Of a stretch of 37,900 nt of DNA, positions 8,374 to 16,025 are shown one piece after another. The notes below the pieces were generated by a model. It was not told where the DNA came from. It searched no databases and saw only the letters and a program-made list of their open reading frames with translations. The stretch is from Bacillota bacterium (GTDB lineage Bacteria; Bacillota; Sulfobacillia; JAJZYS01; JAJZLH01). Numbering within the stretch: the stretch's first letter is position 1; each line of letters begins with the position of its first letter. Location of the stretch: contig JAKAUI010000056.1 of NCBI GenBank assembly GCA_021827745.1, positions 1-37,900 of the forward strand, in the 5' to 3' direction. Made by a program: the position numbers and the translations under genes.

Positions 8374-9648
8374 GTGCACGACCTGAAGGAGATCCGCCAG
8401 CAGCCGGAGCGATTCCGGCGAGGGGTGGAGAAAAAGGGTGGGAGCGGAGCCGACGTCGAGCGACTGGTCGCCCTGGACACCAGGCGCCGCGAGGTGCTGA
8501 TCCGGGTGGAGGCGCTGCGCGCCGAGCGGAACCGCTCAAGCGAGGCGATTGCCGCCAGCCGGCGACAGGGTCAGTCGGTGGACGAGGCGATGCAGGCGGC
8601 GGCCCGGGGCCTGGGAGAGCAGATCCGCCAGGTTGAGGCAGAGCTGGCCGAGGTGGAGCCGGAGATCGACCGTATCCTACGCGCTCTGCCGAACATTCCG
8701 AACGACGATGTGCCGGAGGGGGACGAGAGCCAGAACCGAGAGGTGCGCCGCTGGGGCGAGCCTGCTGTGTTCGATGAGCCGGCGAAGCCGCACTGGGAGA
8801 TCGGCGTCGAGCTCGGCATCGTCGACTTCGAGCGGGCCGGCAAGGTGAGCGGGCCGCGGTTTGCCTTTTTGAGGGCAGACGGAGCCCGTCTGGAGCGAGC
8901 GCTGATCGACTTCATGCTCGACCTGCACACCAGGAAGCACGGCTATACGGAGATCTGGCCGCCGCTTCTGGTCAACGCCGACAGCGCCTTTGGCACCGGC
9001 CAGCTGCCGAAGTTCGGCCAGGACATGTTCCAGACCACGGATGGCTACTATCTGATCCCTACCGCCGAGGTGCCGGTCACGAACCTGCACAGCGGCGAGA
9101 TCCTGAGCGCCGCGGACCTGCCGCTGCGCTACTGCGCCTACACGCCGTGCTTTCGCTCTGAGGCTGGGGCGGCCGGTCGGGACACGCGGGGCCTGATTCG
9201 CAACCACCAGTTCAACAAGGTGGAGCTGGTCAAGTTCACGACCGAGGAAGACTCGTACTCGGAGCTAGAGAGCCTGCGTCGCGACGCCGAGTCGGTGCTG
9301 GAGGCGCTTGGGCTGCCGTATCGAACGGTGGTGGTGGCGACCGGAGAGATGACCTTCTCAAACGCCAGGCAGTACGATCTGGAGGTCTGGTTTCCGGCCC
9401 AGAACATGTACCGGGAGATCTCGTCCTGCAGCAACTTCGAGGCCTTCCAGGCACGGCGGGCGAACATCCGATACCGCTCTGAGGCGGGAGACGTCCGCCA
9501 CGTCCATACGCTGAACGGCTCTGCGCTGGCCGTGGGCAGGACGTTCGCCGCCATCTTGGAGAACTATCAGCAGCGTGATGGCTCGGTGATGGTGCCAAAG
9601 GCGCTGCGAGCCTACCTCGGGGGACAGGATCGGATCGCCCGAGGGTAA
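8374..9648 (+). CDS. serS: Seryl-tRNA synthetase
   Basis: A 424-residue class II synthetase that charges tRNA-Ser. The N-terminal coiled-coil arm (about residues 25-105), which grips the long variable arm of tRNA-Ser, is followed by a catalytic core with motif 2 ([20 protein letters not shown]) and motif 3 ([20 protein letters not shown]). The serine-site stretch [20 protein letters not shown] is also present. The GTG start at 8374 follows GAGGGAGGCGAG. Expression should be controlled by the T-box. A tRNA-Ser gene starts five bases after the stop and is probably on the same transcript. Confidence 0.98.
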
Positions 9649-9653
9649 GTTGT

Positions 9654-9741
9654 GGAGGGGTGGCCGAGTGGCCGAAGGCGGCGGTCTTGAAAACCGCTAG
9701 GGTGAAAGCCCTCGTGGGTTCGAATCCCACTCCCTCCGCCA
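9654..9741 (+). tRNA. tRNA-Ser(UGA)
   Basis: A class II tRNA with a long variable arm. The anticodon loop CTTGAAA between GCGGT and ACCGC gives anticodon TGA. The acceptor arm GGAGGGG pairs with TCCCTCC, the discriminator is G, and CCA is encoded. It starts five bases after the serS stop with no visible promoter of its own. Confidence 0.97.
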
Positions 9742-12468: not shown

Positions 12469-13275
12469 GTGGGGCAGTTGAGCTTCGGCCAGGTTCTCGA
12501 CGCGACCTGGGCCATCTACCGCAAGGGTTTCGTCAGCTTCGTGGCGGTCGGGCTGCTCAGTCAGGTGCCCTACGCCATCTTGGTGGCGCTCACCGGCGTG
12601 GCCGTGGGCGGACGTTCGGCCGTTGCCGCCCTGGCCCTGGTTGCGGTGTTTGCCTTCCTGGCAGGCGTCCTTCTCCAGGCAGCCTCGATCCGGCTGGCCC
12701 ATTCCTTCTATGAAGGCAAGCCGGTGTCGGCCCTTGACGCCGTGCGCCAGGTCGGGCCGGTCCTCCTGCCGCTTGTCCTCTTGACCGTCCTGCTCGGCCT
12801 CGGGACAAGCCTGCTCACGCTCCTGCTCATCATTCCCGGCTTCATCTTCTACTTCCGCTTCGTGCTCGCCATCCCCGGACTGGTGATCGGCCGCGACACG
12901 GTGTGGAGCTCGTTCGGAGACGCCTGGAGAATGTCGAAGGGTGCCTTCTGGCGCATCCTTGGAGCCAGCGTCATCTTCTCCCTGGCCATCGCCGTTGTCG
13001 ACGGCCTGATCAGCCTGGTCGCCGGCAAGGCCGGGCTGTCCGGAACACAGCAGGCGGCCTACCTACTGGCGCCCACCATCGGACGCTTCTTCGCCGCCCT
13101 CGGCCCCGGCCTCGTCGCCGGGGCTGTGCTCAGCGCGCTGACCGGTTCGGTGATCCCGATCCTGCTCACCGTCCTCTACCATGACCGCCGCGCCGCCCAG
13201 AACCCGGATCTAGAGACGGCTGCCGTCTTGACGGAGCCTTCTGGAGAGTCACACGGTCGGACCGAGACCCGCTGA
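12469..13275 (+). CDS. Polytopic membrane protein, YciC / GDPD-membrane-domain-like
   Basis: A 268-residue protein with about six hydrophobic segments. The layout (GQVLDATWAIYRKGFVSFV at the N-terminus, a central VLLPLVLLTVLLGLG then IIPGFIFYFRFVLAIPGLVI, and SSFGDAWRMSKGAFWRI after it) resembles the membrane domain next to glycerophosphodiester phosphodiesterases and the YciC/DUF975 group. No catalytic residues are visible and the function is unknown. The GTG start at 12469 is six bases after AGGAGG. The hydrophilic C-tail (about 30 residues) should be cytoplasmic. Confidence 0.75.
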   Translation: MGQLSFGQVLDATWAIYRKGFVSFVAVGLLSQVPYAILVALTGVAVGGRSAVAALALVAVFAFLAGVLLQAASIRLAHSFYEGKPVSALDAVRQVGPVLLPLVLLTVLLGLGTSLLTLLLIIPGFIFYFRFVLAIPGLVIGRDTVWSSFGDAWRMSKGAFWRILGASVIFSLAIAVVDGLISLVAGKAGLSGTQQAAYLLAPTIGRFFAALGPGLVAGAVLSALTGSVIPILLTVLYHDRRAAQNPDLETAAVLTEPSGESHGRTETR

Positions 13276-13344
13276 CGCACAAGCAGAGCAGCCTCGTTTG
13301 CGCCTTGGCTGCACTTTTCCTGGCCATCGCCGTCCGACCTTGGG

Positions 13345-13350
13345 TATAAT
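13345..13350 (+). promoter_or_regulatory. -10 element before tRNA-Ser(GCU)
   Basis: A perfect TATAAT, 12 bases before the tRNA, with no good -35. The position suits a tRNA promoter with a very short leader. Confidence 0.6.
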
Positions 13351-13362
13351 GAGACACCCTGC

Positions 13363-13456
13363 GGAGGGATACCCAAGTGGCTGAAGGGGCGGTCCTGCTA
13401 AGACTGTAGGGGGCACAAAATGCCCCGCGAGGGTTCAAATCCCTCTCCCTCCGCCA
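13363..13456 (+). tRNA. tRNA-Ser(GCU)
   Basis: A class II tRNA with a long variable arm. The anticodon loop CTGCTAA gives GCT, reading AGC/AGU. The acceptor GGAGGGA pairs fully with TCCCTCC, and CCA is encoded. Confidence 0.97.
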
Positions 13457-13469
13457 GCCACCACCCCGA

Positions 13470-13491
13470 CCCGCCCCCGCCCAGGGGCGGG
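13470..13491 (+). terminator. GC-rich hairpin after tRNA-Ser(GCU)
   Basis: CCCGCCCC (13470-13477) pairs perfectly with GGGGCGGG (13484-13491). No T run follows. It probably ends the tRNA-Ser transcript before the next promoter. Confidence 0.5.
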
Positions 13492-13513
13492 CCGTGAAAT
13501 CCGAAGGCAATTG

Positions 13514-13522
13514 TGCTATCCT
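13514..13522 (+). promoter_or_regulatory. Extended -10 promoter of the tRNA-Arg/tadA transcript
   Basis: TGcTATCCT, an extended -10, 12 bases before tRNA-Arg(ACG). No clear -35. Confidence 0.5.
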
Positions 13523-13533
13523 TACGGCCGAAA

Positions 13534-13609
13534 GCGCCCATAGCTCAGCGGATAGAGCGCGTGGCTACGGACCACGAGGCCGAGGGTTCAAATCCTTCTG
13601 GGCGCGCCA
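13534..13609 (+). tRNA. tRNA-Arg(ACG)
   Basis: The anticodon loop CTACGGA between CGTGG and CCACG gives ACG. The acceptor GCGCCCA pairs with TGGGCGC, and CCA is encoded. A34 of this tRNA is the normal target of TadA, which makes inosine so that CGU, CGC and CGA are read. tadA lies 88 bases further on. Confidence 0.97.
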
Positions 13610-13615
13610 AGCTTC

Positions 13616-13694
13616 GCCCCTGTAGCTCAGGTGGATAGAGCGGGGGTTTCCTAAACCCTGTCTGCCGGGGGTTCGAGTCCCTCCAGGGGCGCCA
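13616..13694 (+). tRNA. tRNA-Arg(CCU)
   Basis: The anticodon loop TTCCTAA gives CCT, reading AGG. The acceptor GCCCCTG pairs with CAGGGGC, and CCA is encoded. Six bases after tRNA-Arg(ACG) and three before the tadA frame, so all three are likely on one transcript. Confidence 0.95.
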
Positions 13695-13697
13695 ATA

Positions 13698-14162
13698 TTG
13701 GAGGGGGCCGGCACGCACAGTCACTTCCTGCGGCAGGCCCTGGCCGAAGCGGAGGCCGCCCTGGCGATGGGCGAGGTGCCGGTGGGCGCCGTTGTGGTGC
13801 TGGGCGGCGAGGTGATCGCCCGGGCGCACAACCTGAGGGAGACGCTGCATGACCCGACGGCCCACGCCGAGATGCTGGCGCTGCGCCAGGCGGCGGCCAA
13901 TCTCCAGGACTGGCGACTGTCCGAGGCCAGCCTCTACGTCACGCTCGAGCCGTGCCTGATGTGTGCGGCGGCGATCGCAGAGAGCCGTTTGCGGCGGGTG
14001 GTGTTCTCGGCCTACGATCCGGAGAGGGGTGCTCTGGGCTCTCGCCACCATGTGCTCGGCCAAGGCCCAGAAAGCCGGCGGACAGAAGTGCTGGGAGGCC
14101 TGTTGGAGGAGGAAGCGAGCGCTCTCTTGAAGAGGTTTTTCCTGTCGAGGAGGGATGTCTGA
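13698..14162 (+). CDS. tadA: tRNA-specific adenosine deaminase TadA
   Basis: A zinc deaminase that converts A34 of tRNA-Arg(ACG) to inosine. The CDA-fold motif is complete: His56-Ala-Glu58 (proton shuttle) and Pro85-Cys86-x-x-Cys89. The body starts at FLRQALAEAEAALAMGEVPV, as in other TadA proteins. The start is awkward. The only conventional candidate is TTG 13698, three bases after the CCA of tRNA-Arg(CCU), with no site in front. A GGAGGGGG at 13700-13707 would instead fit an unusual ACG codon at 13713. The last 14 bases, including the stop, lie inside tRNA-Ser(CGA). The gene sits where B. subtilis has yaaJ (tadA), just before SRP RNA and dnaX. Confidence 0.93.
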   Translation: MEGAGTHSHFLRQALAEAEAALAMGEVPVGAVVVLGGEVIARAHNLRETLHDPTAHAEMLALRQAAANLQDWRLSEASLYVTLEPCLMCAAAIAESRLRRVVFSAYDPERGALGSRHHVLGQGPESRRTEVLGGLLEEEASALLKRFFLSRRDV

Positions 14163-14242
14163 GCGGTTGAAAGAGCCGCACTCGAAATGCGGTAGGCGGG
14201 CACAAACTCGCCTCGTGGGTTCGAATCCCACTCCCTCCGCCA
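14149..14242 (+). tRNA. tRNA-Ser(CGA)
   Basis: A class II tRNA. The anticodon loop CTCGAAA between CCGCA and TGCGG gives CGA, reading UCG. The acceptor GGAGGGA pairs with TCCCTCC, and CCA is encoded. Its first 14 bases also encode the last four codons and stop of tadA. Confidence 0.96.
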
Positions 14243-14252
14243 TAAGTGTTTC

Positions 14253-14346
14253 GGAGAGGTGTCCGAGTGGTTGAAGGAGGATGTCTGGAAAGCATCCAGG
14301 CGGGCTAAAACCTGCCTCGTGGGTTCGAATCCCACCCTCTCCGCCA
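14253..14346 (+). tRNA. tRNA-Ser(GGA)
   Basis: A class II tRNA with a long variable arm. The anticodon loop CTGGAAA gives GGA, reading UCC/UCU. The acceptor GGAGAGG pairs with CCTCTCC, and CCA is encoded. It completes the set of serine tRNAs in the window. Confidence 0.97.
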
Positions 14347-14354
14347 AGATTTCG

Positions 14355-14625
14355 ATTTGGTCGTGCTAGATGGGGAGGTAGCGGTGCCCTGTCACCCGCA
14401 ATCCGCTACAGCGGGGTTGAACTCCGGTCCCCGGCCCCGGCTCTCAGCGCACACCACCCAACGACCCGTTGACGGCTCGGCCCTGCGCGACGTGGACCTC
14501 TGAACCCCGTCAGGCCCGGAAGGGAGCAGCGGTAAGGAGCATAAGCGAGTGCCGCAGGCACCCCGGACCCGAGGGCAGGCGGGTGGTCCCCCGGTGGGAG
14601 AAGGCGGTCAAAGGCCGGTGCACGG
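14355..14625 (+). ncRNA. ffs: Signal recognition particle RNA, large Bacillus type (scRNA)
   Basis: The Ffh-binding domain is unmistakable: GTCAGGCCCGGAAGGGAGCA at about 14509-14528. Upstream, GCTAGATGGGGAGGTAGCGG followed by TGCCCTGT and CCGCAATCCGCT is the Alu-domain signature of the long B. subtilis scRNA. GGTGCACGG near 14617-14625 matches its 3' end. The length of roughly 270 bases implies the large form with an Alu domain. The ends are estimated by likeness and may be off by several bases. It follows tRNA-Ser(GGA) closely and may be processed from the same transcript. Confidence 0.93.
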
Positions 14626-14635
14626 CCGCCTCATT

Positions 14636-14669
14636 CCGCAAGGGGAAGCCAGGTGGCTTCCCCTTGCGG
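14636..14669 (+). terminator. Long perfect hairpin after SRP RNA
   Basis: A 15-bp perfect stem: CCGCAAGGGGAAGCC (14636-14650), loop AGGT, GGCTTCCCCTTGCGG (14655-14669). No T run follows. Its position between SRP RNA and dnaX suggests a terminator or processing signal for the small-RNA transcript. Confidence 0.6.
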
Positions 14670-14714
14670 ATCGTTACCGACAGGAGTGAGCACGGGTCCG
14701 ACGGGAGGGATGAC

Positions 14715-16025
14715 GTGCACCAGGCACTGAATCGAGCCCACCGACCGCACCGCTTCGATCAGGTGGTGGGCCAGGCGCACGCCGTGACCATCTTTCGCAA
14801 TGCGCTGCGCCGGGATCGGCTAGGCCATGCCTATCTGCTCTCCGGACCGCACGGGGTCGGCAAGACCAGCCTGGCCCGGATCGTGGCCATGGCCGCCAAC
14901 TGCCTCAATCCCCAGGACGGGGAGCCGTGCCTGAGCTGCGAGACGTGCCTGAATGCCTCGCTCTACACTGTCGAGATCGACGCCGCCTCGAACAACGGCG
15001 TCGACGACACGAGGGATCTTAGGGAGCGGGCGCAGTTTGTGCCGCCGATCGGACGTAGGAAGGTCTACATCATCGACGAGGCGCACGCCCTGAGCCCCCA
15101 GTCGTTCAACGTGCTGCTGAAGATTCTGGAGGAACCCCCGGACCACCTGATCTTCCTGTTCGCCACCACGTCGCCTGAGAAGATGCCGATCACCGTGCTC
15201 TCCCGCTGTCAGCGCATCAATCTGCGGCGGTTCGAAGACGACGAGGTCAGCGCCCAGTTGACGGCGGTGGCAGGTCGGGAGGGACTCTCCGTGTCCCCAG
15301 ACGCGGTCGGGTGGATGGCGAAAAAGGCCGAGGGGAGCATGCGCGACGGGCTGGCCATGCTCGAGTTGGCCGCGTCCTATGCCGAGGACGAGGTGACGAC
15401 AGCCGACGCCCGCACCGCTCTCGGCAGCGTTCCGGAAGAGGAGATCGCCGCTCTGCTCTCGGCCGTGCAGGCCCAGAACGGAGAAGCGGTGCTGGACCGC
15501 ACGGCTGCCCTGGAGCGGGAAGGGGCCGACTTCGTGCAGCTCGGCCACGACCTGCTCGACGAGGTGGGCCGCCGGATGACGGCCGCCTACCGCGAGGGTG
15601 ATGGGCAGTCGCCAGCGTTCTGGCTGAACCTGTGCCGGGAGCTCTTGGCCCTGGAAGCGGCCGGTGTTGGCAGTCAGGTTGGGAGGCTTGCCCTGGAGGC
15701 AAGGCTGCTGGCGGCCGCAGCCTTCGGGCCCAAGACAGCCGTGCTGGCACCGGCCCCGGCGGCGACCGCGGTCCCGGCCGCGGCTGAGCCGGTGGCCCTC
15801 GACCCGCTGGCCAAGATGTCAGGCGGAGGAGAGCGCTGGTTTGCCATCTTGCTGCAGGGTGCTCGGGCCCGCCATCAAGACGGCGAGGTCTGGATCGAGT
15901 TCCCGTCTCCCGGCTCCTTGATCCGGGCCGAACAGGAGGACGCCCGCCGCCTGTTCGAGAAGGGCCTCGAACGGATGCTAGGACAGTCGGTGCAGATCCA
16001 CTTCGGCATCAGCAAGGAGCGATAG
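14715..16025 (+). CDS. dnaX: DNA polymerase III subunit gamma/tau
   Basis: A clamp-loader ATPase of 436 residues. Walker A GPHGVGKTS is at 44-52, with zinc ligands Cys63, 72, 75 and 78. IIDEAHALS is Walker B, and LSRCQRINLRRF is the SRC/arginine-finger motif. GTG 14715 follows GGGAGGG at five bases. The frame stays open back through the SRP RNA, but that part is not coding. The protein is short beside B. subtilis DnaX (about 560). After an Ala/Pro linker near residues 345-365 it ends in a compact domain (ERWFAILLQGAR to VQIHFGI) like the C-terminal tau-type domain of other Bacillota. No convincing slippery frameshift site was found. Confidence 0.96.
   Translation: MHQALNRAHRPHRFDQVVGQAHAVTIFRNALRRDRLGHAYLLSGPHGVGKTSLARIVAMAANCLNPQDGEPCLSCETCLNASLYTVEIDAASNNGVDDTRDLRERAQFVPPIGRRKVYIIDEAHALSPQSFNVLLKILEEPPDHLIFLFATTSPEKMPITVLSRCQRINLRRFEDDEVSAQLTAVAGREGLSVSPDAVGWMAKKAEGSMRDGLAMLELAASYAEDEVTTADARTALGSVPEEEIAALLSAVQAQNGEAVLDRTAALEREGADFVQLGHDLLDEVGRRMTAAYREGDGQSPAFWLNLCRELLALEAAGVGSQVGRLALEARLLAAAAFGPKTAVLAPAPAATAVPAAAEPVALDPLAKMSGGGERWFAILLQGARARHQDGEVWIEFPSPGSLIRAEQEDARRLFEKGLERMLGQSVQIHFGISKER

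Follow-up and report, generated by a model that had tools for sequence, protein, structure and literature searches.

A tadA gene placed among tRNA genes, with its stop codon inside the adjoining tRNA-Ser gene, in a member of the Bacillota

In the 37,900-nt stretch of DNA analysed here (the window), a gene read as tadA is wedged between tRNA genes, one of which it overlaps. This arrangement raises the question of whether maturation of the tRNAs and synthesis of the enzyme are linked, and of whether the overlap was selected or is a by-product of compaction. A sequence-only reading had described tRNA-Arg(ACG), tRNA-Arg(CCU), tadA and tRNA-Ser(CGA) as contiguous, with the tadA frame opening 3 nt past the CCA of tRNA-Arg(CCU) (13694, then TTG at 13698) and with the final 14 nt of tadA being the first 14 of tRNA-Ser(CGA) (14149-14162). 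All of these coordinates were confirmed by ARAGORN, Rfam and the ORF list. The features of the locus are as follows.

13321..13350, + strand: promoter-like site before tRNA-Ser(GCU), TGGCCA-18-TATAAT (promoter scan, 10/12)
13363..13456, + strand: tRNA-Ser(GCU) (ARAGORN and Rfam)
13494..13522, + strand: GTGAAA-17 nt-TATCCT, a promoter-like element whose second hexamer is preceded by TG (comparison with the same-genus relative G002)
13534..13609, + strand: tRNA-Arg(ACG), the TadA substrate (ARAGORN and Rfam)
13616..13694, + strand: tRNA-Arg(CCU), with its CCA encoded at 13692-13694 (ARAGORN and Rfam)
13698..14162, + strand: tadA, 154 codons, probable TTG start, TGA stop within the next tRNA (ORF list)
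13713..13715, + strand: alternative ACG start of tadA, preceded by GGAGGGGG (-10.8 kcal/mol to the anti-SD)
14149..14162, + strand: overlap of 14 nt, in which tadA ends (..R D V stop) and tRNA-Ser(CGA) begins
14149..14242, + strand: tRNA-Ser(CGA) (ARAGORN and Rfam)
14253..14346, + strand: tRNA-Ser(GGA) (ARAGORN and Rfam)
14361..14625, + strand: large bacterial SRP RNA (Rfam RF01854, 132.4 bits)
14636..14669, + strand: 15-bp hairpin after the SRP RNA, without a T run, probable transcript end (conservation in relatives)
14715..16025, + strand: dnaX (TIGR02397, above cut-off)

From tRNA-Arg(ACG) through the SRP RNA, the intergenic distances are 6, 3, -14, 10 and 14 nt. The 14-nt overlap is identical in both same-genus MAGs (G001 and G002), all three genus members being alike, and it is therefore not an assembly slip. 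The source genome, available as a draft, has 64 contigs totalling 1.62 Mb and is 97% complete; no second copy of either tRNA-Arg(ACG) or tRNA-Ser(CGA) was seen in it. It also carries a tRNA-Sec gene (L387, G000:C49:68873-68968) and may use selenocysteine.

Regarding the identity of the gene product, the window protein matched Pfam deaminase profiles, and its closest matches were to TadA, ahead of RibD, cytidine and dCMP deaminases. In NCBIfam, TadA was the best match with 148.8 bits, just below the cut-off of 150 (RibD, 52.8), and PDB structures of TadA were matched with E=3e-40. The zinc deaminase motifs HAE and PCxxC are present as PTAHAEM and EPCLMCA, aligned with TadA 2b3j, and the substrate tRNA-Arg(ACG) lies in the window at 13534-13609. 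Altogether these matches identify the predicted product as TadA, the tRNA adenosine-34 deaminase. As the remaining deaminase matches in the source genome were weak, this is the one clear tadA of the genome.

The neighbourhood was then compared among relatives. Genomes were drawn evenly per phylum, and those read were the ones matching the window protein, at most the best 30 per search; genomes whose TadA is more divergent fall outside these samples. In the class, tRNA-Ser lay closely downstream of tadA in 47 of 50 loci and tRNA-Arg(CCU) upstream of it in 47/50, and in the phylum sample (n=109, within 500 nt) tRNA-Ser was found downstream in 92 loci, tRNA-Arg(CCU) upstream in 60 and tRNA-Arg(ACG) upstream in 49, all of these counts being lower bounds because contigs end nearby or flanks are short at some loci. 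Outside the phylum, tRNA-Arg(ACG) preceded tadA in 12 of 27 Omnitrophota and 6 of 30 Planctomycetota (best 30 matches at most per search). A sample centred on KSB1 (L328-L357, again the best 30 matches at most) had it upstream of tadA in 30/30, behind tRNA-Glu(CUC) in 29. In the Proteobacteria sample, any tRNA was located within about 1.5 kb of tadA in only 1/29.

Because the flanking tRNAs are conserved across class and phylum, the arrangement is more than chance, and because the gene neighbourhood recurs, substrate tRNA included, in the class, the phylum and other phyla, it is old. These comparisons indicate that the tRNA-tadA cluster is ancient and common to several phyla, and was lost or never present in some. 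The claim that tadA adjoins its own substrate tRNA was thus borne out, the adjacency being conserved across phyla. Genomes whose tadA is neither in contact with tRNA genes nor close to them, a case to which the sequence-only reading had drawn attention, were absent from the order and almost absent from the class, but do occur in Proteobacteria. This adjacency of tadA and substrate tRNA across phyla is the more interesting part of the locus. No title or abstract on tadA-tRNA adjacency was found in the open-access literature searched, and the paper on TadA evolution that was checked does not discuss gene neighbourhood.

In Bacillus subtilis, the chromosomal order is serS - tRNA-Ser - tadA - scr/SRP RNA - dnaX - recR, which is of the Bacillota type. 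The window likewise has serS, tRNA-Ser, tadA, SRP RNA, dnaX and recR in sequence, whereas its tadA is directly flanked by tRNA-Arg(ACG), tRNA-Arg(CCU), tRNA-Ser(CGA) and tRNA-Ser(GGA), one of them overlapping. At serS itself (window 8374-9741), tRNA-Ser(UGA) begins 5 nt past the stop codon, so that the synthetase also adjoins its own tRNA.

Concerning transcription, a scan of 13200-14800 gave a single promoter-like site, which lies ahead of the whole gene set, and no terminator-like sites. In the 13321-13350 site, TATAAT is kept in G002 and the -35 is not conserved. The element at 13494-13522 stops 11 nt short of tRNA-Arg(ACG); its hexamers and 17-nt spacing are conserved in G002 and its spacer has diverged, a pattern that is not by itself evidence of function. 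Between tRNA-Ser(GCU) and this element lies a GC-rich inverted repeat without a T run (13472-13492), which possibly terminates an upstream transcript. At the other end, the hairpin at 14636-14669 is retained in G001 and G002 despite sequence changes. Neither promoter nor terminator was found between the genes, and the 3-nt gap upstream together with the 14-nt overlap downstream leaves tadA no space for a promoter or terminator of its own outside the tRNAs. This supports the earlier proposal that tadA is co-transcribed with the flanking tRNAs, which the anatomy of the locus makes near-forced. The promoter-like element and the hairpin after the SRP RNA suggest one transcript with tadA as its sole protein gene, the predicted unit containing four tRNAs, the SRP RNA and one protein. 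Whether the substrate tRNA-Arg(ACG) heads this transcript, as had been claimed, depends on the 13494-13522 element: the claim holds only if that element is used, since tRNA-Ser(GCU) (13363-13456) sits upstream.

RNase P cleaves at the 5' end of tRNAs, and RNase Z is usually blocked by an encoded CCA. The sequence-only reading proposed that tRNA processing would cut the tadA mRNA at both ends. On the 3' side this agrees with the expected RNase P cut for tRNA-Ser(CGA), between 14148 and 14149, which falls within the tadA frame; on the 5' side, a cut by RNase Z is doubtful because the CCA of tRNA-Arg(CCU) is encoded. We propose that tRNA-Arg(ACG), tRNA-Arg(CCU), tadA, tRNA-Ser(CGA), tRNA-Ser(GGA) and the SRP RNA would form a single RNA, from which RNase P and 3' nucleases would excise the tRNAs, with TadA translated before or between the cuts. 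If the cut at 14148/14149 came before translation ended, the tadA stop would be removed and, as this stop sits inside tRNA-Ser(CGA), the cut molecule would be a non-stop message; a ribosome at its end would presumably stall and need rescue by tmRNA. A ribosome terminating at 14162 would in turn cover the 5' strand of tRNA-Ser(CGA). Because the cut removes the stop and the terminating ribosome covers the tRNA 5' strand, RNase P cleavage and complete TadA synthesis should compete on each molecule, a competition that would follow logically from the layout, each transcript giving either full TadA followed by the tRNA, or else the tRNA together with a ribosome that has stalled. No sign of selection on this competition was found in the overlap comparison or in the shuffle tests described below.

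Mixed tRNA-mRNA transcripts are known from bacteria, for example thrU-tyrU-glyT-thrT-tufB and metY-nusA of E. coli. The predicted window transcript would likewise hold tRNAs and mRNA in one RNA split by RNase P and other RNases, but the coding frames of those transcripts lie outside the tRNA, whereas the tadA stop lies inside one. In animal mitochondria, tRNA excision likewise sets mRNA ends and genes may overlap tRNAs; stops there are completed by polyadenylation, whereas the tRNA sequence in the window already contains the tadA stop, which would be lost on cleavage.

The overlap was not conserved among relatives: it is 14 nt in the three genus members, is replaced by a gap of 4-5 nt in family f4 of the same order, is 24 nt in families f2 and f3 of that order, and varies elsewhere. 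Among loci with a downstream tRNA, 35 of 225 overlap, in many lineages and in all three frames, with lengths of 10, 14, 22-24, 47-48 or 56 nt. As the first in-frame stops within tRNA-Ser(CGA) mainly end at 14, 22, 24, 47 and 48, the overlap sizes are set by the tRNA. In a quick TadA tree of loci with tRNA-Ser (158), the overlap is present at 29 tips and requires a minimum of 17 state changes, which may be an overcount because the tree is based on a short protein (about 140 columns) and weakly resolved. Since the overlap is absent in f4 and spans 10-56 nt elsewhere, repeated loss of the native stop fits better than a conserved regulatory device. Most likely, the overlap arose repeatedly, a lost native stop being replaced by a ready-made one in the adjacent tRNA, and it is probably a neutral, tolerated by-product of compaction. 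Counting against compaction, the identical overlap in all three genus members could likewise reflect selection acting in the genus. Among 30 tRNA loci of the source genome and the window, no other convincing CDS-tRNA overlap was found; one open frame extends over 23 nt of tRNA-Pro(CGG) but was unconvincing as a gene. Bacterial CDS-tRNA overlap was not the subject of any title or abstract in the open-access literature searched.

Taken as a whole, the explanation that we favour, with a probability of roughly 0.7, is that the locus would be an ancient compact unit in which tadA is the sole protein gene among translation RNAs, cleavage and translation would compete, and the overlap came about by compaction. 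One departure from it concerns the promoter. Internal promoters in tRNA (or tadA) sequence are possible, and tadA could then have an mRNA of its own that starts within the tRNA-Arg genes, its translation being unaffected by tRNA processing; given the 3-nt gap, the scan's single site, which precedes the whole gene set, and a downstream overlap that would still force read-through into tRNA-Ser, we regard this as highly improbable. More weight attaches to the start codon. TTG 13698 is the most likely start of tadA, with real doubt: it is the sole ATG, GTG or TTG ahead of the conserved first helix, but the anti-SD match 8 nt before it (AGGGG, -5.7 kcal/mol) is weak and lies within the 3' acceptor strand of tRNA-Arg(CCU). 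G001 and G002 have a TTG 3 and 1 nt past the CCA, respectively. The anti-SD tail behind all these energies was assumed, not read from the source genome. The stronger match, GGAGGGGG (-10.8 against -5.7 kcal/mol), falls between TTG 13698 and ACG 13713, and translation might instead begin at this non-standard ACG, which would make the 5' end ordinary, with an 18-nt spacer after the tRNA. In the sister family f4 (L005-L013), an in-frame CTG occupies the same position in 9/9 genomes, about 25-29 nt past the tRNA-Arg CCA and with a strong anti-SD match upstream (-11 to -12); two of these genomes have no ATG, GTG or TTG between tRNA and CTG, and the codon is a candidate conserved CUG start. Caution about TTG starts at +3 also comes from a polA-like frame after tRNA-Leu(CAA) in the source genome (L140), where a chance TTG stands at +3 after the CCA though a GTG further on, which has an SD, looks to be the start. 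In both G001 and G002, however, the codon at the ACG position is GCG, which is no start codon and rules out ACG 13713 as a conserved start. Initiation at the ACG is thus possible but doubtful; it would alter nothing beyond the 5' end and can stand alongside the favoured explanation.

It could also be that selection favoured both the overlap and a start codon at the 3' end of a tRNA, letting maturation of tRNA-Arg and tRNA-Ser and synthesis of TadA regulate each other. The adjacency of tadA and substrate tRNA across phyla, the position of the stop codon past the RNase P cut, in the tRNA, and the anti-SD match within the tRNA-Arg acceptor stem are in line with such coupling. So is the folding prediction for 14100-14246: in the unconstrained structure, each strand of the acceptor stem of tRNA-Ser is paired with tadA sequence, at an energy 11.5 kcal/mol more favourable than when the stem is imposed. 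The overlap, however, varies and is absent in sister family f4, and across loci the anti-acceptor fold is not significantly beyond synonymous shuffles: the fraction was 0.04 for the window (marginal, as one of 58 loci tested), 0.16 and 0.21 for the genus relatives, and 0.57 on average for overlaps of other sizes. Selected coupling therefore appears unlikely to us. The anti-acceptor hairpin, though strongly predicted, was also set aside, as overall it did not exceed dinucleotide or synonymous shuffles. It is distinctly unlikely that the placement of tadA between tRNA-Arg(ACG) and tRNA-Ser is a functional device in several phyla, by which the rate of RNase P would set TadA output and transcripts with the stop in the tRNA would choose between TadA and tRNA.

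The locus shows that the stop codon of a protein gene can be part of a tRNA, recurrently and in sizes dictated by that tRNA. Annotation rules forbidding overlap between CDS and tRNA would truncate or drop such genes. Finally, several phyla keep an editing enzyme next to the tRNA that it modifies, so that whether the two are expressed in a coupled way is directly testable.
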